NCBI GenBank assembly: GCA_012270065.1
Contig: JAAXJB010000063.1
Coordinates: 1-37,147, forward strand
Source of the DNA: Rubripirellula sp.
GTDB taxonomy: Bacteria; Planctomycetota; Planctomycetia; Pirellulales; Pirellulaceae
Length of the DNA stretch: 37,147 nt
Direction: 5' to 3'
In this document: piece after piece, positions 21,889-34,651 of the stretch
How the letters are laid out: each line of letters starts with the position of its first letter
How positions within the stretch are numbered: position 1 is the stretch's first letter
Translations under genes and position numbers: made by a program
The notes under the pieces: model-generated
Databases searched by the model: none
Seen by the model: the letters and a program-made list of their open reading frames with translations, nothing else
Told to the model about the DNA's origin: nothing

Positions 21889-23331
21889 TCAGGCAAAAAT
21901 ATCATCAGCGACCTGCCCAGCTACGTCCGTCAGGCGAAAGTCACGTCCGGCGTAGCGATATGTAAGCCGTTGATGATCAAGCCCCATCAGATGCAAGATT
22001 GTGGCGTGCAGATCATGGACATGCATCTTGTTCTCAGCCGCATAATAACCGTAGTCGTCCGTGGCACCATACGCATAGCCACCCTTCACGCCGCCACCCG
22101 CCATCCACATGGAGAACCCATGCGGGTTATGGTCTCGCCCGTTGTTTCCCTGTGCGGTTGGCGTTCGTCCGAATTCACCTCCCCAGATCACCAACGTATC
22201 TTCGAGAAGCCCTCTGCATTTGAGATCCTGCAGCAAACCGGAAATCGGCTTATCGACCTCTGATGCATTTTTTGTATGTCCGGCATAAAGATTGCCGTGC
22301 TGATCCCACTGCACTTCGCTGTCGCTGTGTGTGACCTGCACGAACCGAACACCATTTTCAATGAACCGCCGCGCCATCAGGCACTGTCGCCCAAAATCTT
22401 CCGTGACTGGGTCGTCAATGCCGTACATCCGCTGGGTAGCAGAAGTTTCTCGCGTAAGATCCTGAAGTTCGGGCATGGATGCCTGCATTCGATAGGCAAG
22501 TTCGAAGGAGTTCAGCCTTCCTTCCAAGGCATCATTTGACCCGACTCGATCCAGATGATCCTGATTCATGGATCGGATCAAATCGAGTTGCCGTCGTTGA
22601 CTGAGGCTGTCAATCCGTGGATTACGAATGTGTTTTACACCGACTGATCTGGCATTGAGAGACGCGTTGCCGATCGGTGTGCCCTGACAGTGCGCTGGCA
22701 GAAAAGCGGCTCCCCAATTGTTCACACCACCATGAGCCAGCGTAGGACAAATGGTGATGAACGCCGGTAGATTTTCATTTTCCGTACCCAGCCCATAAGT
22801 CAACCAGGATCCGAGACTGGGTCGCACGAACTGATCACTGCCGGTATGCAACTTCAGCAAAGCACCGCCGTGTGCCGGGTTCGTACCGTGGACTGAACGT
22901 AAAATGCACAAGTCATCGACGTGTTTCGCGACATTCGGAAACAGTTCACTCACGGGCAACCCGCTCTGTCCGTGACGCTTGAAACGCCAAGGCGATCGCA
23001 GCAGATTGCCCTGTTTTGCGAAAGTTACCCTCGGCAAATCAAATGGCAGCGGTTTGCCATGGTCCCGATCCAGCAAGGGCTTGGGATCAAAGGTATCAAC
23101 ATGCGAAGGGCCTCCTTTCATGAACAGGAAAATGACCCGTTTGGCGCGAGCTGGGAAATGAGTGGGTTTGGGAGCCAACGGCCCCGTTGATTTGACTCCC
23201 TGTCCAGCCTCGGCGCCACTTGCTGACGCAGCCGAAGTGCGGTGAAGCAGATCAAGAAAGGCAAGGTTGCCGAAACCAACGGCAGAGTTACGGAGCACAC
23301 TTCGCCGGGATTGCAAAAACTGATTCATCAT
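21889..23331 (-). CDS. DUF1501 protein with Tat leader (sulfatase/alkaline-phosphatase-fold relative)
   Basis: About 480 residues from the ATG at 23331, chosen because it lies four bases after the stop of the PSD1 gene and an AAGG-type ribosome site precedes it; the frame extends upstream into that gene. A Tat leader [20 protein letters not shown] is clear. Family blocks: [20 protein letters not shown] (about 61-80), [71 protein letters not shown], and a C-terminal [17 protein letters not shown] with [12 protein letters not shown]. Planctomycete DUF1501 genes nearly always sit beside a PSD1 gene; the function is not established but is probably periplasmic. Complete, normal length. Confidence 0.9.
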
Positions 23332-23335
23332 GCTC

Positions 23336-26300
23336 TTACCTTGGGTACATGAATTCATTACTGGCAAAGAGGCTTTGACAAAACAACAACCAACCCCTGC
23401 TTCGACAGTTTTCGTCAGCAACACCGTTCTTGATGGCAGCGTCTGCCATCACCTGTTCCACAAAATCCAGCGCTCTACGTGATTCGTGTACATACCGGTG
23501 TACCCCCAAAACTAAATAAAAACCAATTTCGATTCGCCCCAAGTCCCTGGAAGACGTTTCGAGAATGCTCTGGGCAAGAGCATCTGCTGAATCAATCACA
23601 AGATCCGAATTCATCAACAGAAGTGCCTGGGGAGCCACCACTGTCTCACTGCGATTACCCGTCGGCATCGTTGGGTCGGGAAAATCGAACTGCTCAAACA
23701 TGGTGTAAAGGTTGTTCCGAATGACTGGCAAATAGACAGCACGTCGCAAACTGTCATACCGGGTATGATCCACCGAAGTATGATTGAAAACAAACTGACG
23801 GTTCCGCAACGGTACTGTTTTACCTGACATCTTTGCATCCAGACGTCCGGAAACAGCAAGAATCGAATCCCTGATCTGCTCCGGTTCAAGTCGCTGGATG
23901 CGATATTTCCACAAGAGCCGGTTGTCAGGGTCTACCTTCAAGCCAAGTGTTTCGTCTGCGGAAAGCGAAGACATCTGGTAGGTGTTTGAGCTGAGAATCA
24001 GCCGATTGAGACTCTTTGTCGACCAACCTGATTCCATGAACCAATGCGTCAACCAATCAAGCAATTCCGGATGTGAGGGCCGGTCTCCGAGAACGCCAAA
24101 ATTCTCCGTCGTTCGAACAAGCCCCTCTCCAAAATGCCAACGCCAAACCCGATTCACATAAACCCTTGCCGTGAGCGGATGCCGCGTGCTGGACATCCAA
24201 CGTGCCAGTTCCAGTCTTCCACTTTGGTGTCTTGGGAAGATCGGCCGCACATCCGAACGTCGCATCACTTCCGGAAATTCACGGGCAATTTTTTTACCCA
24301 GATTCAAATGACTCCCACGAATGTGAATGGGCAGATGAGTCAGGATCGCATCATCCGAAACTCCCATCGCGGCCGGAATGTCCCGAGCTCTGGATTCATA
24401 CAATCTGGCAGCTTCCATCCGTCGGTTGTACTCGGCCAACGTTTCCTGATCAAAAGCAAATTCCGGCTTTGGCGGAATGGTCAGAAAACCGGAACGGTCT
24501 TTCAGTGCCGCTTCCACCATTTTCAAATCCGGCAACAGAATCCCACCTGTGCCGGATGCCTGCTCCAATGATTCACCGGCGACCTTGTTTTCAGTCGCCG
24601 CTGCAAAAAGTGGCCGATACAGTTTTTCCACTGCAAGGGCCTTCTGAGCCGGGTCGGTTATCCCTTGCTGCACTTCATGCCAAGGCTTGAAAACTTCGTG
24701 TTCCCTGTTGAATTCAAGATGCCTTCGACAATGATGCAGGATTCGTGGGTGCAAATCATGCTGCTGTGCAATCTCCGTGATTCGCACCAGTGAATCTGAC
24801 AGACCAAAGGCGGTGCATGCCACCAGGTACTCAACTGCCTTGGAAGTTGCTGACTCTCGCAAAGATGTAATCGCCGCATTCTTCCAGTCGCTGGCTTCTT
24901 TTTTCAATCGGGCAATTTCTGCATCGATGGCCTTGAATTCATCCGCGTCTTCATCGGAACCCAGAACATATTCATGCCAATGCTTGATGGCCCCGGTGTT
25001 GGTGTCACCGAAGGTTTTCGTGCTTTTGAAAATAGCAGCCAACGCGTAGTAATCACTTTGCTTGATCGGATCAAATTTATGATCATGGCAGCGCACGCAT
25101 CCAAGACTCATCCCCATGAACGCTTTGCCCGTCGCGTCGATTTGTTCATCGATTGTGTCCATCGTCAGCTTTTCCCGATCAGGCTCAGCCAACACCTTGG
25201 CACCAAGAACAAGAAACCCTGTGGCGATTCTTGTTTCCGCGTTGGCATCCGGCAGCAGATCACCTGCCAACTGCTCCATCAGAAAGCGATTGAAAGCCCG
25301 GTCGTCATTGAAGGCACCGATCACATAGTCGCGGTATCGCCACGCGTTACCAAATGCCAGATTCTCATCCAGACCGTTCGAATCTGCATAGCGTGCAACA
25401 TCCAACCAGTGTCGACCCCAACGTTCACCATACGCCGGTGAATGGAGAAGCCGATCGATCAGTTTTTGCGTCGATCCCGGTGAACCATCTGAAAGAAACC
25501 TGTCCAACTGTTCGGGAGTCGGTGGCACCCCGGTTACGTTCATGTAAAGTCGCCGAGCCAGCATTCCAGCTTCGGCTGGCGGTGCAGGTTGCAATCCACG
25601 CGACATCAGTTTTTGCAGGATGAATGCATCGATCGGATTTTTTACAAAGTCCTGCTCACCCAGGTCAGGAACGGAGGGATTGATGACCGGTTGAAATGAC
25701 CAGAATTTCCTACCGTCCTGAATGCTCATTCCAATCGGCGAAGGTGCCCCTGTTATCTCGAGTCGCGGGTCAGGGGCTCCCATTTCGATCCACTTCACCA
25801 TCACATCGATCTGATCCTGTTTCAGTCTGCCTTGTGGAGGCATCTGGAAATCCTGATTCTCGTAACGAATGGCTTCCACCAACAAACTGGAATCAGGATC
25901 ACCTGGAACAACAGCCGCGCCGGTGTCACCTCCACGCAGCAAACCAGCTCTCGAATTCACATGTAATCCGCCATCGGCACGTTCATCATGACACTCGTAG
26001 CAGTGCTCGACGAAAATCGGCCGCACCTGTTTTTCAAAAAACTCGAGCTGCGTCGCAGACACCGCCTGATTCTCACCACCACCTGCTTCACCCGCGTTCT
26101 GGGAAGTCTTGTCCTGAGAAGTCTTGTCCTGAGAAGTGTCATCCTGGGAAGCAGCAGTCGCAGCTGCGACTTTTTCCTGTGCCACGAGCATTTGAGATGC
26201 CCCTGCCAGAAGCCACCAACACACCAGACAGAAAGCAAACACTATCCATGTGCGCATCGACCGACCGGCGACACCGGTCGTCAACCACCAACGCGGCCGA

Positions 26301-26356
26301 TCGTTGATGTGGAGCGAACTTGAAATATGAGCCATCATGCATCGCATTTTAGTCAT
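23336..26356 (-). CDS. PSCyt1-DUF1549-DUF1553 (PSD1) cytochrome c domain protein
   Basis: Up to 1006 residues. A leader lies at Met34 ([19 protein letters not shown]), so the start may be 26257 rather than the first ATG. A polar stretch with TSQDK repeats follows (about 70-86), then the PSCyt1 haem site CYECH (119-123) with [19 protein letters not shown] and [12 protein letters not shown]1549 follows with [44 protein letters not shown] and a second [12 protein letters not shown] motif. DUF1553 at the C-terminus has [32 protein letters not shown] and a final [14 protein letters not shown]. Such proteins are secreted, probably haem-binding, and paired with DUF1501 genes; the reaction is unknown. 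First gene of the operon with the DUF1501 gene. Confidence 0.92.
26102..26146 (-). repeat. tandem 15-bp repeats in the PSD1 gene
   Basis: Three imperfect tandem copies of a 15-bp unit built on GTCTTGTCCTGAGAA (plus strand); two are identical and the third is diverged. They encode TSQDK-type pentapeptides between the leader and the first haem site, which keeps frame and likely forms a flexible linker. Boundaries are approximate. Confidence 0.7.
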
Positions 26357-26801: not shown

Positions 26802-28184
26802 TCACCCTTGATCCCACTGCAGGACGGTCTGTCCCCGCTGAAGGTTGATGCAGACGGTCTGGGTCTGTTCACCCTGCCACCACGTCCCCGCAGCCAAACC
26901 GGATATTTCAGAGACCTTCTCAAGTTTCCGATCGAGTCTCGCTGCTCCTTTCACCTTGGCAATCCGGAAGGTGAAGTTTTCAACGGCAAATGGAGATTCC
27001 AATATCAACCTGTTTCCAACTCGGTTCAACCTGGTCAACTCGCGAGCAGCCCAATAGCGTGCGATCTCACTCAGTTTCATCCATCGTGTTTTATTGCCAA
27101 AGCGAGTCTCAAGCGAAGTGACAATTCTCTGGAACGCCCGAAACCCATCTTCAGAACCATTGCTGTAAATCCCCGGCCAATGGCACAGCATGACGGCCGG
27201 CTGGCGACGTTCGATCAATTCAACCATCCTGCCGGTGGTTGCATCCTGATCACAATAAAGGTCAGGTTCCGACATCCGGTCTCCCTGCCAACCACCAAAC
27301 CAGTCACCCGTCCCGGCTGGAACATTGACCGTCAGTCTCAGGTTGTCCGTTCCGACTCCGCGCAAGTGTTCGATGATGGGCTCCGTACTTCGATCCCCCA
27401 TGTGCACGTACTTGAAGTAATGCGGGATCTCGACAGGGTAGACATCTCGCACGGCCTGATCGACTGCCAACGATAATTCGCTCTTCACAAGGTTTCCAAA
27501 CCCGCCCGGCGTCGTGATTCCTTCACAGGGAAGATCACAACGCTCAAGAATCCGGAGCGCGTAACTTAAATATGACGCCAACTCATCAACGCTTTTCTTT
27601 TCCTGTGGATACGAGTTTTCCATCGTGCCTGCGTTGATTTCTTCCTTCGGTCTTCCTGTCTTCAAGTCAATGACACGCGTATGTGTGATCATCTCCGGAT
27701 GAATGTCCCAGTTGGGGACCATCAATTCCCGAATCAGTTTCAGGCTATCCTGCAACTGTCGCCGCGACCAACCTGGCATTTCACGATCTACCCAACCGAC
27801 GCAAGCAGGGTAGGGCACAACACTGTATTTTCCACGAACGCCACGCTCCGCACACCACTCCCCGAAGCGGCGTACAAAGTCATCTGGTATTTCTCGCGGC
27901 CAACTCCGCCAAGGCTTCTTGTACTCGGCACGAGCTGGCAACGCCTCTGCGAACTGTGGTGTGCAAAAATGGCCCATGTTCACGAGACAAGTCGAGTCAT
28001 CAATGACGAAAGACAAAGGAACGCGATCGCAAGGAAGTAGTACTTCGACGTCTGCTGCACCAGCTCCAGCTTCGCGCAAGGTTCGCGATTCTTGACCAGA
28101 ACCATCATCGGCGATCAGACGAATTGCATTCCGACTCGCTGCAACACCGGCACCAGCTGCCAAAAAGGACCTTCGTGTCTGCAT
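26802..28184 (-). CDS. Tat-exported polysaccharide-deacetylase-like protein
   Basis: 460 residues with a twin-arginine leader (MQTRRSFLAAGAGVAAS). The middle resembles a NodB/deacetylase-type beta/alpha barrel: VPLSFVIDDSTCLVNMGHF carries paired Asp residues and a following His in the place of the first NodB motif; WDIHPEMITHTRVID resembles the H-x(3)-H metal block; CEGITTPGGFG and VMLCHWPGIYSNG sit near the expected later motifs. The last 80 residues (LILESPFAVENFTFRI...) look like a beta-sandwich. The substrate is probably a carbohydrate but is not shown. It stands alone on the minus strand with 448 bases ahead of it; the distance to the PSD1 gene downstream is 445 bases. Confidence 0.65.
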   Translation of the reverse strand: MQTRRSFLAAGAGVAASRNAIRLIADDGSGQESRTLREAGAGAADVEVLLPCDRVPLSFVIDDSTCLVNMGHFCTPQFAEALPARAEYKKPWRSWPREIPDDFVRRFGEWCAERGVRGKYSVVPYPACVGWVDREMPGWSRRQLQDSLKLIRELMVPNWDIHPEMITHTRVIDLKTGRPKEEINAGTMENSYPQEKKSVDELASYLSYALRILERCDLPCEGITTPGGFGNLVKSELSLAVDQAVRDVYPVEIPHYFKYVHMGDRSTEPIIEHLRGVGTDNLRLTVNVPAGTGDWFGGWQGDRMSEPDLYCDQDATTGRMVELIERRQPAVMLCHWPGIYSNGSEDGFRAFQRIVTSLETRFGNKTRWMKLSEIARYWAARELTRLNRVGNRLILESPFAVENFTFRIAKVKGAARLDRKLEKVSEISGLAAGTWWQGEQTQTVCINLQRGQTVLQWDQG

Positions 28185-28632: not shown

Positions 28633-29292
28633 TTATGATCCCGCGGCACCGCTATCCGCAGCACTGGCAGTCTCTGGATCCGCTTTCGGCCATGGTGGAA
28701 TTTCTTGTCCCTCGGCAGGCTTCCCGGATCCATCACTCGTCCCGCGTAAACTCGCCACATAGGCAGAAACGAGAATGATTTCGTTGGTCGATAATTTTGA
28801 CTTCCAGGCAGGCATCGCGCCAGCATTGGCACCGTTTTGCAGCACGTTAAGAATATCAGCAATATCACGGATGTTTTTGTAATGGTCATCCCGGAGATTG
28901 GGACCAACCTGACCCGCCCCATCGCGTCCATGACAGGAAACACAATTGGTTTTGAAGATTGACCGGCCCACTCGCAACCATGAATCTTCATAGGTGAAAC
29001 GAATCAAGGTAGCACGATCCGCCTTGAGTTCCCCCATCTGACTGAACTGCAATTTCAGATTTTCGGCCAACTGCTGGTCATGTCGGTCAGCGAGTGAACG
29101 TCCTTCCGTTCCATTGTGATAAAACCAGAAATACGGTGGCGCAAACGCAAGGCAAGCCGCGACCCCCCAGATCCACCATTTGGGCAATGGCCGACTGTAT
29201 TGATGGATTCCATCAAAGGAATCTTCGTTCAATTGGACTTCGGTGTCCGATGTTTCGTCTGAATCAGAAAGTTGGTTGTTTGGGTCATTCAT
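28633..29292 (-). CDS. CcoP-like cytochrome c subunit with one haem site
   Basis: 219 residues from the ATG at 29292, which gives a normal CcoP N-terminus; the frame opens 12 codons earlier. FDGIHQYSRPLPKWWIWG (about 26-43) is the CcoP signature ahead of a single membrane helix (about 39-57). After a charged helical part, one cytochrome c domain follows with CVSCHGRDGAGQVGPNLRD and axial Met in NAGAMPAWKSKL. Standard CcoP has two haem c domains; this one has only one, then a polar Pro/Ala/Ser tail. It is 160 bases downstream of the CcoN-CcoO gene on the same strand and surely belongs to the same complex. Confidence 0.85.
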   Translation of the reverse strand: MNDPNNQLSDSDETSDTEVQLNEDSFDGIHQYSRPLPKWWIWGVAACLAFAPPYFWFYHNGTEGRSLADRHDQQLAENLKLQFSQMGELKADRATLIRFTYEDSWLRVGRSIFKTNCVSCHGRDGAGQVGPNLRDDHYKNIRDIADILNVLQNGANAGAMPAWKSKLSTNEIILVSAYVASLRGTSDGSGKPAEGQEIPPWPKADPETASAADSGAAGS

Positions 29293-29452
29293 GAGATGAA
29301 ATGTCCCCGCTTTGATAACGAGGTGCAAAAATCGAATTGTTTTTACCTGATGTCAACGACGCTGATTGCATGCAAGTCAAATGGTAGCTCGAAGAGGTCA
29401 ATCAGACTTTGCCATGTCTCCAAGGCATGGCCGACTGTGTTCTGAAACGTAT

Positions 29453-31846
29453 TCATGGCCCGACACCGACGAGCTTTCTGGACACAGCAACGTCACCTTT
29501 ACGAGGATCTGCCGCTTGCTTCGATGCAGCATTGGAATCTGCGCGGCCAGACTCAACATCCGCTTCCGGTTTCTCAACTGAAACGGGCGTTGTCAGATCA
29601 GCGCCCAATCGTTGCAGGTACGCGATCAGAGCAACAGCCTGAGTATCAAATGTCATCAGTTTGCCCCGACGGATCGTTCCGCCACGTGAAACGATGTCAG
29701 CCGCAACACGCTCTGCCTGTTCATTGATGACTTCCTGGGTATCCTCCGGATCGATTTCATAGGGCAGCCCACGTGCTTTGGCGGTTTGCACCAACTCATC
29801 TACCTGGCTGAAATCAATCGGTCGATCCAGCAAATACCTGTACGAGGGCATTGACGATTTCGGATTGCTGTGCCGAGGGTTATCGAGGTGTTGCCAATGC
29901 CAGAAACTGGTCTGCTTTCCAGACTCACGGGCCAGGTCAGGCCCAATTCGCCGGCTTCCCCATTGTGCGGGCTGATCGTAAATGAACTCACCGGGCTGGC
30001 TGAATTCGCCATACCTTTTGGTCTCCGCCATGAGCGGCCGCACCATCTGGGTATGGCAGTTCGCACACCCCTCAACCAGATAGATGTGTCGTCCCATCAA
30101 TTCCAGAGGGGTGAGCGGTCGAACCGAAGCAATTTTCGGTGCGTTCGCGTTTGGAAACACGAAGACCGGCACCACTTCGATGATGAAGGCCAACAGAACA
30201 GCAAGTGCAACAAAAATGCCCAGTTTCCGCGGTGCACACTCCAGTTCTCGATGCCAACTCAATCTCGTCCAAACATCCACTTTCTTGGCGAAGTTCAAAA
30301 CCGGAACATCTTCCAGGACACTGGCTGGCTCCGGGTTGGATACCGTCCGATTCGGTTCTTTGCCAGACTCCACATGATGAACCGGAACCGCGTAAGGTCT
30401 GGCACGCTTCAACCAGGTCCGTGCATGGTTGACAAGCATGACTGCCATACCGGCGACATAAGCCATGCCACCCAGCATTTGCAGCGACCACATCATTTTC
30501 AGAAACGAATTCGACTCGGCAAAATCAAACTTCAAATTCCCGAGATCATCCATGGCGTTCCATGCAAACGCCTGAACAACCCCGGCGGCGTACCCCGGCA
30601 ATACACAAAGCAACACCCCGATTGCTCCCAGCCAGAAGTGCAAACCGACTGCTTTGGCACTTGCGATTTCAGTCTGGAACAGCCGAGGTATCATCCAATA
30701 AGACATTCCCAGAATCAGCATGCCGCCACACCCCAGGCTGCCAAGATAAAAATGTGCGGTCATCCATTCGGTGTAATTCACCTGCGCCTGAATGCTCTTC
30801 ACGCTCAAGAAAATTTCTTCAGCTGCATAAAACCCCAACAACAAAGTCCCAAACTTCAAAAAACGAATCCGGGGATCAGCCGGTTTCTGGACCTCGGCTC
30901 CACGGAAAGTCGCGAGGATATTACTGACACTGCCCAGGATGGCCAAACCGAGCAGGACGCCGGAAATCATGCCCAAACTTGAAATCCATTCCGGCAAAGC
31001 CGTGTAGTGCAAATGCTGGGGGGCGGCCCAGACGCCGGCAATGACCAATACCCAAAAGCTGACAATTGCCAGTTTGTAACTGTGAAGCGGCTGATTCAGT
31101 ACTTTGGGAACGAAGTAATACGTCAGTCCAAGCAATGGCAGCAGGCAGGAAAAAAGGAATGCGTTCCGGGTATACCATGTTTGCAACAACGCATCCTGCA
31201 TGCCTGTTGCGAGCGAATCACTCTTCCACCAACCGTTAGGAAAAACGAAAAGATTGCACAGAGTGACCAGCGCCATCGCCACTACGGCGGCAATGAAGAA
31301 CCACAATGACGCATACATACGTGTCACACGACGACGTACCAAAGTCATGAAAAAGGTCGATGCAAAGAACAGAATCCAAACCAGTGTGATGGCAAGATCG
31401 ATCGGCCACTCGACTTCACCGCCAACACGTCCCTGAGTGATTCCGCGGGGCAGCGTGAGCAGACCGGCAACGATGATTGCCTGCCAACTCAGCAGGTGTA
31501 GCCAGCCGAGGAACCTGCTCCATGTTCCAGCTCGACACAAACGCTGTGTGCTGTAATAGATTCCAGCAAAGATCCCGTTGGCGATGAATCCCATCAGCAA
31601 CAACCATTCACCAACTGGCTGCAGGCGACCAAAACTCAACCACTCGGGTCCCGAACCAAGCCTTGGATGCAGCAAGGTGGACGTCAGGAAGACAACTCCA
31701 ATGGCAGCCGCGAGTCCCCAAAAAACTGTCACCAAAAGAAAACCGCGAACGATTGCATCATCGAAGGAGTACGAGTCCTCGGTAGCACCATCCAATCGCA
31801 TCGCGTCGGTTTCCCCTGGATCGCCCGACGAATTCCCGCTCAACAC
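29453..31846 (-). CDS. CcoN-CcoO fusion of cbb3 type, with a CcoN half that has lost its haem and copper ligands
   Basis: 797 residues. Residues 28-485 align with CcoN (SFGRLQPV, EWPIDLAITLVW, YYFVPKVLNQPLHSYKL, HLHYTALPEW, IPRLFQTE), about 12 membrane helices. Residues 540-760 are CcoO: one helix, then EGCANCHTQMVRPL (594-598) and axial Met in SSMPSYR (666). Compared from memory with Pseudomonas stutzeri CcoN: His60 is Gly79, His207 is Arg227 (WYTRNAF for WYGHNAV), Tyr251 is Gly271, His257 is Gln277, His349 is Tyr367; only His258 (278) and His347 (365) remain. So the low-spin haem b has no ligands and CuB keeps one of three. The surface and fold are kept, so it is under selection, but it should not reduce O2. 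Forms an operon with the CcoP-like gene; a true ccoN is not in the window. Confidence 0.88.
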   Translation of the reverse strand: MLSGNSSGDPGETDAMRLDGATEDSYSFDDAIVRGFLLVTVFWGLAAAIGVVFLTSTLLHPRLGSGPEWLSFGRLQPVGEWLLLMGFIANGIFAGIYYSTQRLCRAGTWSRFLGWLHLLSWQAIIVAGLLTLPRGITQGRVGGEVEWPIDLAITLVWILFFASTFFMTLVRRRVTRMYASLWFFIAAVVAMALVTLCNLFVFPNGWWKSDSLATGMQDALLQTWYTRNAFLFSCLLPLLGLTYYFVPKVLNQPLHSYKLAIVSFWVLVIAGVWAAPQHLHYTALPEWISSLGMISGVLLGLAILGSVSNILATFRGAEVQKPADPRIRFLKFGTLLLGFYAAEEIFLSVKSIQAQVNYTEWMTAHFYLGSLGCGGMLILGMSYWMIPRLFQTEIASAKAVGLHFWLGAIGVLLCVLPGYAAGVVQAFAWNAMDDLGNLKFDFAESNSFLKMMWSLQMLGGMAYVAGMAVMLVNHARTWLKRARPYAVPVHHVESGKEPNRTVSNPEPASVLEDVPVLNFAKKVDVWTRLSWHRELECAPRKLGIFVALAVLLAFIIEVVPVFVFPNANAPKIASVRPLTPLELMGRHIYLVEGCANCHTQMVRPLMAETKRYGEFSQPGEFIYDQPAQWGSRRIGPDLARESGKQTSFWHWQHLDNPRHSNPKSSMPSYRYLLDRPIDFSQVDELVQTAKARGLPYEIDPEDTQEVINEQAERVAADIVSRGGTIRRGKLMTFDTQAVALIAYLQRLGADLTTPVSVEKPEADVESGRADSNAASKQAADPRKGDVAVSRKLVGVGP

Positions 31847-32069: not shown

Positions 32070-32867
32070 TCAGTGAACTTTCCGCCGAAAGGCCAGAGAG
32101 ATAATCTGCAACATGGAACGCACTGCTTCCCGAAGAGACAACTTGCTTTGGCCACGCTCACGTTCCGTGAACGTGATCGGAACTTCAGCCATGCCCTCCC
32201 CTCGCTGGTGCAAACGCATCAACACTTCTTCCAGCACGGCATAACCATTGACCCTCAGATTTTCAAGACCAAGGTTTGCAAGAGCCTCCACGCGATAACA
32301 ACGCATTGATCCACTGCAATCCTTCACCGGCAAACGAAGGCAAGTGGTAGCAAAAACGTTGACCATCCGACTCATCAGCTTTCGGCGAACCGGCCAGCCT
32401 CGAATCTCGCCACCGCTGGTGTAGCGTGACCCGACCACCACCGCCAGCTTGCTATCTTCTACCGCTTTGTGAAACAGCAACGGCATCTGCGCGGGACTGT
32501 GACTGAGATCACCATCAAGATTCATGAAGTAATGATATTGCTGATCGATGGAGTACTGCATCGCAAAACGGATTGCGCTCCCCAGTCCACGTTCATTTTC
32601 CCGCAGGAGAAGAGAAATGCGGCTGTCTTTTTCAGCGAGATCCCTAACCACCTGAGCTGTTCCATCGGGTGAATTGTCATCAACCACAATCACATCTGAA
32701 TCAGGCAAGGCTTTCCGAAGCCCCGTAACCACCAACTCGATATTATCAGCCTCGTTGTACGTACAGACAGCCACCATTGCTCGGGGAACGCTGTCGCGTA
32801 CTACCTGAGCTCCACAAGCAGACTCTGATGCTACCGACGACTCAGATCCGGGCAGTGATGGAGGCAA
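32070..32867 (-). CDS. GT2 family glycosyltransferase, polyprenyl-phosphate mannosyltransferase (DPM1) type
   Basis: 265 residues. GT-A fold motifs: MVAVCTYNEADNIELVV (about 31-47), VIVVDDNSPDGTAQVV (58-73), the metal-binding MNLDGDLSH (about 114-122), VVGSRYTSGGEIRGWPVRRK (144-163) and a C-terminal EVPITFTERERGQSKLS block, the classic dolichyl-phosphate mannosyltransferase pattern. It lacks C-terminal membrane helices, so it is a soluble catalytic form. It moves a sugar from a nucleotide donor to polyprenyl phosphate; the sugar cannot be told. The first 25 residues are polar and may be extra. It stands upstream of the CcoN-CcoO gene, 223 bases away, probably in a separate unit. Confidence 0.88.
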   Translation of the reverse strand: MPPSLPGSESSVASESACGAQVVRDSVPRAMVAVCTYNEADNIELVVTGLRKALPDSDVIVVDDNSPDGTAQVVRDLAEKDSRISLLLRENERGLGSAIRFAMQYSIDQQYHYFMNLDGDLSHSPAQMPLLFHKAVEDSKLAVVVGSRYTSGGEIRGWPVRRKLMSRMVNVFATTCLRLPVKDCSGSMRCYRVEALANLGLENLRVNGYAVLEEVLMRLHQRGEGMAEVPITFTERERGQSKLSLREAVRSMLQIISLAFRRKVH

Positions 32868-33601: not shown

Positions 33602-34651
33602 TTACTTGGAATCGAGCGAATCACTGGCAGCATTGGCACCGACGGCCAGTGATTTCCTCATTTCTGTATCGGCAGCGACATTCTGCAACTTGTAATAGTC
33701 GAGAATATGAAGCTTTCCAGTCTGAAACGCCTCTGCCATTGCATGTGGAACTGCAGCCTGAGCAAGCACGACAGAAGCTTTGCTTTCCTGAATCTTGGCT
33801 TGATTTTCCTGTTCCTCCGCCACTGCGGAAGCTCGTTTTCCTTCGGCCCGAGCCCGTGCTACCTGCGTGTCGGCTTCTGCCTGATCAGCCTGCAACCTTG
33901 CTCCAATGTTCGCCCCGACATCAATGTCTGCAATATCAATGGAAACGATTTCAAAGGCGGTCTGCGAATCAAGACGCTTTGCCAATACAGCTTTGCTGAT
34001 GACGTCCGGATTTTCGAGAACGGCCTTGTGATTTTCTGCCGACCCGATGGCACTGACAATGCCTTCACCCACCCTCGCAATGATGGTTTCTTCGGTTGCA
34101 CCACCGATCAACTGCTGCAGGTTTGCACGCACCGTAACTCTGGCTTTGACCTTCAATTGAATGCCGTCTTTGGCGACCGCATCAAGCGATGGCTTGGCCG
34201 CACCACGCGGCGGACAGTCAATGACCTTCGGATAAACACTGGTCTGGACCGACTCCAGCACATCTCGCCCCGCCAAGTCGATGGCAGTAGCTTCGCGAAA
34301 CGTAAGCGAAATCGTCTTTGCTTTTTTTGCCGCAATCAACGCACGGGTCACCTGCTGAACATTTCCACCCGCCAGATAGTGGGCTTCCAAGGCCTTACTG
34401 GTCAGATCCGGATCACTCAGTCCCGCCTGAGTTGACATGATTTTGCTGCGTACGATGGCCCGTGAATTGACCTTTCGAAAAGTCATGCCGAGCAAGTCAA
34501 AGATCGTCACTTGAGCTCCCGTCAACATCGACTGAATCCACAGCCCGAAATAACGGGAAATGATGAAAAGCGCGACGAGTACAATGACTGTCACGATGAC
34601 CGCTAAAATGATGGTTCCTCTGCTCTGGGCCACCAACAGGGTATCAAGCAT
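33602..34651 (-). CDS. floA: flotillin-like protein FloA
   Basis: 349 residues, close to the Bacillus FloA length (about 331). One membrane segment at about 12-33 ([20 protein letters not shown]), then [36 protein letters not shown] and [24 protein letters not shown], the FloA signature, an SPFH-type domain with [20 protein letters not shown], and a C-terminal Ala/Glu/Gln-rich coiled coil (about 255-305). FloA organises membrane microdomains and affects membrane fluidity and secretion. The next gene on the strand is a small basic hypothetical protein, so they may form an operon. NfeD, often its neighbour elsewhere, is not seen here. Confidence 0.92.

Follow-up and report, generated by a model that had tools for sequence, protein, structure and literature searches.

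A CcoN-CcoO fusion protein of Rubripirellula with substituted haem b and CuB ligands, and its relatives in the genus and family

The active site is what defines a haem-copper oxidase. In subunit I (CcoN) of the cbb3 type, haem b is held by H60 and H347, haem b3 by H345, and CuB by H207, H257, and H258, and Y251 is the tyrosine crosslinked to a histidine (residue numbers follow P. stutzeri CcoN1, 3mk7_A). The stretch of DNA analyzed here (the window) is a whole contig of 37,147 bases from a 6.99 Mb, 99.5% complete Rubripirellula genome. It encodes a CcoN-CcoO fusion (CcoNO) in which five of these seven positions are substituted and two (H278 and H365) are retained. The complex of the window is, on strong grounds, no oxidase, and the substituted form is neither a chance product nor simple decay.

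The closest described systems are (i) cbb3 oxidases with a CcoN-CcoO fusion (NF011053/PRK14485; 3mk7, 9g6b, 8smr), (ii) ccoS mutants of R. capsulatus, and (iii) the orphan CcoN forms of Pseudomonas. The window protein resembles the first group in its full-length sequence, predicted fold, CcoO and CcoP haem c motifs, and the locus of its genus. It differs in the substituted positions, in a locus devoid of a ccoQ-like gene, ccoG, ccoI, ccoS, and an operonic ccoH, and in scores below the NCBIfam cut-offs. Its CcoP carries one haem c motif, as in two canonical relatives read, while the CcoP of R. capsulatus is di-haem (PMC5742617). PMC8267372 describes a CcoNOQP complex detected without active CcoN cofactors in the ccoS mutants, and CcoO insertion without CcoI or CcoS in C. 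jejuni. The R. capsulatus case, however, is that of a normal enzyme in a mutant made in the laboratory, whereas here the state is fixed in many species and the ligands, CcoI, and CcoG are lost as well. Pseudomonas CcoN3 and CcoN4 are likewise extra CcoN forms with altered roles (PMC5697931), but these isoforms support growth on O2, and each protein of the window type fuses CcoN to CcoO and has a ccoP of its own. Among the titles and abstract openings listed by an open-access library, none described a haem-copper oxidase lineage that is conserved and selected yet has lost the active site.

The CcoN-like half aligns throughout with cbb3 subunit I, as a preliminary description of this DNA had proposed. 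PF00115 spans residues 32-461 with a score well over the Pfam cut-off, and phmmer aligns the protein to CcoN1 of 3mk7 with an E value of 2.7e-89 and no long gaps. An AlphaFold2 (AF2) model superposes on 3mk7_A in Foldseek with a target-normalised template modelling (TM) score of 0.96, a root-mean-square deviation of 1.7 Å, and 36% identity. The model was built from a 40-row alignment that included canonical sequences (mean predicted local distance difference test score 80, predicted TM score 0.84); the superposition supports the fold and does not inform on cofactors. In the window, G79, R227, G271, Q277, and Y367 stand in place of H60, H207, Y251, H257, and H347, with H278 and H365 at the positions of H258 and H345. 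All of these residues had been named correctly beforehand, except that the label His349 corresponds to H347 in 3mk7 numbering. The CuB trio thus reads R, Q, H, in breach of the cbb3 pattern, the proximal ligand of haem b3 is present (H365), and CXXCH occurs in both CcoO (CANCH) and CcoP (CVSCH). The protein does not qualify as a nitric oxide reductase (cNOR/qNOR) either: these enzymes have an FeB site of three His and a Glu, with a low-spin haem b, and here the His set is broken and the haem b ligands are lost.

Within the genus (22 genomes sampled), CcoNO proteins fall into three types: (i) canonical, with all seven positions; (ii) type C, in which Tyr251 is lost together with one or more of the CuB histidines and H60, H345, and H347 are kept; and (iii) type B, which has lost H60, Y251, H257, and H347. 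CcoNO was found in 21 of the 22 genomes (8 canonical, 5 type C, and 8 type B including the window); G015, which is 74% complete, gave no CcoNO match and contains CcoS and CcoI. The type C losses occur in 5/5 C genomes and the four type B substitutions in 8/8 B genomes, and the genus is a natural series comprising a full oxidase, a form without the CuB site, and a form without haem b ligands. Four of the five substitutions noted for the window therefore recur throughout B, but the fifth, H207R, is specific to the window, and H207 is kept in the other seven members. The position of H347 is occupied by Q in six B members, E in one, and Y in the window, H258 is kept in 4/8, and the canonical residues missing from all eight include H156, H243, Y317, T321, and R437. 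Relatives in the clade among named records are 62-72% identical and are labelled Rhodopirellula, Rubripirellula, Planctomycetaceae, or Planctomycetota metagenome-assembled genomes, labels that point to a Pirellulaceae-like, probably marine, planctomycete.

Stricter family models separate these types. Against TIGR00780 (the CcoN equivalog, cut-off 583.15 bits) the window protein scores 340.9 bits, and against NF011053 (the fusion, cut-off 1080) it scores 718.9. The window and four other B or C proteins tested fail both models (341-437 and 719-859 bits), and three canonical controls from the genus pass (634.9-639 and 1210-1243 bits).

Three other readings of the substitutions were rejected. An assembly artefact is incompatible with substitutions at the same four positions in eight separate genomes. 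Relocation of the ligands to nearby residues, which the preliminary description would have taken as refuting its view, was rejected by reading eight residues to either side in the 13 B and C sequences: none of the eight B members has a His within eight residues of the place where H60 was lost, and every His near the other lost sites is a canonical position (H258, H260, H337, or H345) or, in L126 only, the residue after H207. As for a new metal site, the only His or Cys residues invariant in the eight B members beyond those usual in canonical CcoN are C197 and C414.

The loss of ligands is matched by the loss of the insertion (biogenesis) genes. Gene order in B and C is floA, a gene for a domain of unknown function (DUF), a glycosyltransferase gene, ccoNO, ccoP, and a gene for a protein with a twin-arginine translocation (Tat) leader. 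Canonical G017 shares this order and adds a ccoQ-like gene and the ccoG-to-ccoS block, and canonical G013 and G014 agree over the stretches covered; in G001 the glycosyltransferase, DUF, and floA genes also lie near ccoNO in a different arrangement. Since the Tat-leader gene directly follows ccoP in the window, the ccoG-to-ccoS block is gone from between them. CcoS, CcoG, a CcoI orthologue (at least 48% identity), and a full-length operonic CcoH are each present in 8/8 canonical genomes and 0/13 B and C genomes, and the window's genome contains no match to CcoG, CcoH, CcoI, or CcoS. Five of the 13 have other P-type ATPases only, with best identities of 34-39%. Weak FixH matches (scores of about 22-27 bits, in most cases above the Pfam threshold of 23) in B genomes G002, G005, G008, G009, and G011 and in canonical G013 and G018 were not counted as CcoH; they lie away from the cco locus and cover at most about half of the model inside frames of 717-1286 residues. 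A ccoQ-like gene of 59-60 codons separates ccoNO from ccoP in 7/7 canonical loci and 0/12 B and C loci checked; it is named from its place and size, has no significant Pfam match, and its absence in B and C applies to the locus. A tree of CcoO and CcoP puts B and C together on one side (96/97); in a tree of neighbouring genes they are not together, yet the grouping is not rejected (approximately unbiased test, p-AU 0.26). The insertion genes were probably lost once, in the ancestor of the 13 sampled species.

Table 1. Features of the window discussed here, with positions counted from the first base of the contig.
Feature	Position	Strand	Basis and distribution
ccoNO-like fusion gene, 797 aa, GTG start	29453..31846	-	single open frame; PF00115 + PF02433; orthologues in 13 B/C genomes
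CcoN-like half, residues 24-484, cbb3 subunit I fold (predicted)	30395..31777	-	phmmer to 3mk7_A residues 4-464; AF2/Foldseek TM 0.96
Gly79 replacing haem b ligand H60	31610..31612	-	G or A in 8/8 B
Arg227 replacing CuB ligand H207	31166..31168	-	window only; His in 7/8 B
Gly271 replacing crosslinked Tyr251	31034..31036	-	Gly in 8/8 B
Gln277-His278 at CuB ligands H257-H258	31013..31018	-	QH in 4/8 B, RL in 4/8 B
His365-Phe-Tyr367: H345 (haem b3) kept, H347 (haem b) lost	30746..30754	-	H345 in 8/8 B
CcoO (FixO) half, residues 532-750	29597..30253	-	PF02433 230.9 bits; TIGR00781 191.8 bits, just below cut-off 200.65
CcoO haem c motif CANCH, residues 594-598	30053..30067	-	CXXCH kept in 16/16 substituted sequences and in 5/5 further B sequences
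ccoP-like gene (FixP_N + one Cytochrome_CBB3 domain)	28633..29328	-	PF14715, PF13442; possible ATG start ~29292
CcoP haem c motif CVSCH	28930..28944	-	sequence; CXXCH in 18/18 such CcoP
Gap at the place of the canonical ccoQ-like small gene	29329..29452	-	no such gene here
Tat-leader-like protein directly after ccoP	26802..28184	-	no Pfam match; beyond ccoS in canonical G013, G014, G017
Glycosyltransferase gene, upstream neighbour of ccoNO	32070..32867	-	conserved in B, C, and canonical G013/G014/G017
floA, upstream neighbour	33602..34651	-	conserved in B, C, and canonical G017; nearby elsewhere in G001, G003, G012

Downstream of the locus, window positions 21889-26356 hold a PSCyt1/PSCyt2/PSD1 (DUF1549/1553) gene and a DUF1501 gene. 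An FNR-like box upstream of ccoNO was sought and proved uninformative, with one imperfect match in 20 loci and none in eight canonical ones.

The substituted proteins are maintained by selection. The frame is open in 13/13 B and C genomes, measuring 779-821 codons from stop to stop in twelve; the G002 gene is divided over two contigs (527 and 378 codons). Ratios of nonsynonymous to synonymous substitution rates (dN/dS) were estimated with NG86 and YN00, and saturated pairs (dS above 2 or undefined), including the C pair L108/L109 (0.11, NG86) and L207/L208 (0.16, NG86), were not relied on. In five B pairs, dN/dS is 0.09-0.16 for CcoN, 0.09-0.16 for CcoO, 0.07-0.13 for CcoP, 0.04-0.23 for the adjacent glycosyltransferase, and 0.03-0.07 for FloA. 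CcoN values are 0.05-0.07 in a close C pair, 0.02-0.06 in three canonical pairs of the genus, and 0.13-0.17 for L204/L205 of another genus. CcoN is under purifying selection, though less tightly constrained than in a functional oxidase. Among 106 full-length canonical sequences of the family, 258 positions in CcoN and 78 in CcoO are conserved at 97% or more; all seven complete B sequences keep 114/258 and 58/78 of these, and all five C sequences keep 136/258 and 56/78. Single copies from other genera mostly tilt the same way (L207, for example, keeps 91/258 and 54/78), and L221 is near intact in both halves (247/258 and 76/78). The CcoP beside a substituted CcoNO retains CXXCH and AMPAW, which contains the presumed axial Met, in 18/18 cases. 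The ligand losses are conserved across eight species, the frames are open, dN/dS is far under 1, the haem c motifs are retained, and the insertion genes have gone from the same genomes; together these findings speak strongly against simple decay, in agreement with the preliminary view of a selected non-oxidase. That description had also taken homologues of the same architecture with every His in place as a sign that this copy is decayed; such homologues are plentiful in the family, but they do not show decay here, since the substituted copies themselves form a conserved clade.

The family search covered 241 genomes, of which 145 gave a match and 140 were read, plus named and out-of-family records; the matching genomes left unread are G105, G111, G176, G217, and G261, and those with fragments only (G028, G120, G178, G188, and G257) were omitted from the family table. 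The P. stutzeri reference excluded, the 174 non-redundant CcoNO sequences comprise 146 canonical, 21 substituted, and 7 fragments. Outside the genus, five substituted copies (L204, L205, L206, L207, and L208) accompany a canonical CcoNO, and for three others no second copy was found: L221 (Y251C), L245 (H207Q, H258Y), and L239 (five changes). CcoS occurs in 113/119 family genomes with a canonical CcoNO versus 0/16 with substituted copies only (Fisher p 3e-16, a value that ignores relatedness). CcoG is absent from the substituted-only genomes G172, G186, and G196 and present in 4/5 two-copy genomes. The loci of L206-L208 consist of the substituted ccoNO, ccoP, and then a further cytochrome c gene. 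In a quick gene tree, L221 stands beside canonical L028 (100) and L239 lies inside a canonical group (99); because both are placed among canonical sequences, the substituted form likely arose at least three times, in the genus, in L221, and in L239, judging by sequence placement. L204-L208 and L245 sit on long branches, which makes the number of origins uncertain and could add more.

Several individual copies differ in detail. L221 departs from the canonical set of seven at one position, with Cys for Tyr251, and its 96% complete genome (G172) has no CcoS or CcoG match; it may represent an early step of this process. In L239 (G196:C110:1-2450), CcoNO extends into a cytochrome c domain at its C-terminus; this domain carries a second CXXCH and is truncated where the stretch ends. 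L207:256-1695 encodes a 55% identical relative of the window's Tat-leader protein directly upstream of the substituted ccoNO of another genus. A second CcoN-like family in the order (L042-L053) shows 25-30% identity and frequently adjoins a FixO-like match. It was set aside as a source of substituted relatives, as the positions of H60, H207, the Tyr, HH, and HxH are unchanged in 12/12; 11/12 share the motifs GRWR..HTN, FIHDLVG, and GIHHFLYTPIP, and L043 differs.

The preferred reading, given roughly one chance in two, is that of a pseudo-oxidase in which CcoN, poor in cofactors, acts as a membrane scaffold for the haem c groups of CcoO and CcoP. An ancestral full cbb3 locus (ccoNO-ccoQ-ccoP-ccoGHIS) would have lost its cofactor-insertion genes, and purifying selection would have preserved CcoNO and CcoP as a cytochrome c complex that no longer works as an oxidase. 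CcoN, devoid of redox-active haem b or CuB, would mainly serve to position the domains of CcoO and CcoP, each with a single haem c, on the periplasmic side of the membrane, and the haem b3/CuB center could not be built. We infer the exact job of the complex from these features: electrons from a quinol:cytochrome c reductase may travel through CcoP and then the haem c of CcoO to a different acceptor in the periplasm or membrane, such as aa3-type oxidases, bypassing the haem b and haem b3/CuB route. A complex poor in cofactors is what the loss of CcoS by itself would produce, in line with the sequences. Of the functions suggested in the preliminary description, electron transfer through haem c and a scaffold role agree best with the findings, but no evidence emerged here for quinol chemistry or an ion channel.

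A number of observations weigh against this reading. H345 and E323 (as E or D) are kept in 8/8 B sequences, H207 persists in seven of these eight, and both haem b ligands are kept in 5/5 C sequences, a sign that the protein may still bind some haem. CcoN is not called cofactor-free here mainly because B retains H345 and E323, and C the haem b pair, so strictly; a single haem could conceivably still sit at H345. Mean CcoN dN/dS in B is about 2.5 times (NG86) to 4 times (YN00) that of canonical pairs, indicating relaxed constraint on CcoN, and FloA next door is under tighter constraint. The same five B and C proteins that fail the CcoN models also just miss the CcoO model (189-195 versus 200.65 bits), which the three canonical proteins pass; the CcoO half is thus itself eroded. 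L239 reverses the tilt toward CcoO, with 190/258 CcoN and 53/78 CcoO positions kept. Six canonical genomes (G109, G121, G136, G169, G180, and G265) lack a CcoS match, and G109, G169, and G180 (93, 82, and 96% complete) lack a CcoG match too. The extra cytochrome c gene of the L206-L208 loci is not adjacent to the window's copy. According to PMC8267372, the CcoNOQ sub-complex is absent from the R. capsulatus ccoI mutant, and a review reports that CcoN is severely reduced without CcoG (PMC7558416). Such gene losses need not leave a stable complex, and loss of CcoI and CcoG might have blocked assembly unless CcoN adapted.

The retained H345 would serve a different purpose if CcoN were a haem-based gas or redox sensor, in which H345 holds a lone five-coordinate haem and both CuB and the low-spin haem b are missing. 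Such a protein would bind O2, NO, or CO without turnover and signal through partners of the complex. This is a minor but real possibility. The residue E323 contacts H345, and cbb3 has a signalling role in Rhodobacter; beyond the B sequences already mentioned, H345 is also kept in 5/5 C sequences, where E323 is invariably E. None of the conserved B and C neighbours annotated (trigger factor-like by eye, FloA, DUF, glycosyltransferase, and Tat-leader proteins) resembles a signalling protein, though not all neighbours are annotated. Moreover, H345 itself is replaced in other substituted copies (R in L207, Q in L208, and S in L239), and CcoS, which is required for the CcoN haems in R. capsulatus (PMC8267372), is gone.

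The other oxidases of these genomes bear on both the proposed electron acceptor and a purely structural role. An aa3-type oxidase gene occurs in 11/13 B and C genomes, the call resting on family score and on the motifs of L001 and L002. A second aa3-type CtaD (frame of 750-763 residues) is found in 6/8 B genomes and in none of the C or canonical members of the genus. In the three loci read (L249, at G000:C105:88000-105582, L250, and L251), the second CtaD adjoins, by eye, a one-CXXCH frame like subunit II; Rieske-like and cytochrome b-like frames follow in two of them (G000 and G006), also by eye, and the third stops at the contig end. This arrangement speaks for CcoN, CcoO, and CcoP as a structural or assembly subunit that holds a bc complex and an aa3 or caa3 oxidase together as a supercomplex, with haem c mainly for folding. 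Such a role is unlikely, as the correlation is limited to one clade and the five C genomes lack the second aa3-type gene. G011 has a further COX1-family gene at G011:C172:11934-13265 (frame of 777 residues, 210 bits) that is unmatched by the window protein and may be NorB-like or contamination (8%).

That the protein is a slowly decaying, functionless relic of a lost oxidase is quite improbable. Variation of the ligands between species, CcoN dN/dS above canonical pairs in B and in L204/L205, lost assembly genes, and CcoO scores slightly under canonical ones would all fit a relic, but the frame remains open in every one of the 13 genomes with dN/dS near 0.1, the haem c motifs persist in every CcoO and CcoP examined, and substituted paralogues coexist with canonical copies. 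A reductase of another acceptor (NO, nitrite, a phenazine-like compound, or a metal) with a remodelled site is very improbable indeed: cbb3 complexes can serve other acceptors, since in P. aeruginosa the cbb3 isoforms that contain CcoN4 have a part in reducing phenazines (PMC5697931), but C197 and C414 are too few to build a new site, and the low-spin haem that would feed it has lost its ligands in B.

The preliminary description had a single protein in view; the substitution is recurrent, with intermediate stages, and is accompanied by loss of the ccoGHIS block. For the family, the case is evenly balanced that catalytically dead haem-copper oxidases form a recurring class under selection, in which the cbb3 core has repeatedly and independently been stripped of its CuB and haem b ligands as well as the insertion machinery, and has been kept as a haem c platform or a one-haem gas sensor, both in replacement of the oxidase and as paralogues. 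For annotation, a good PF00115 match in such genomes could be read as high-affinity O2 respiration, and the stricter NCBIfam models reject the window protein. The series within the genus, together with the matching loss of insertion genes, makes the order in which an oxidase is dismantled, and the abilities of haem c subunits on their own, testable.

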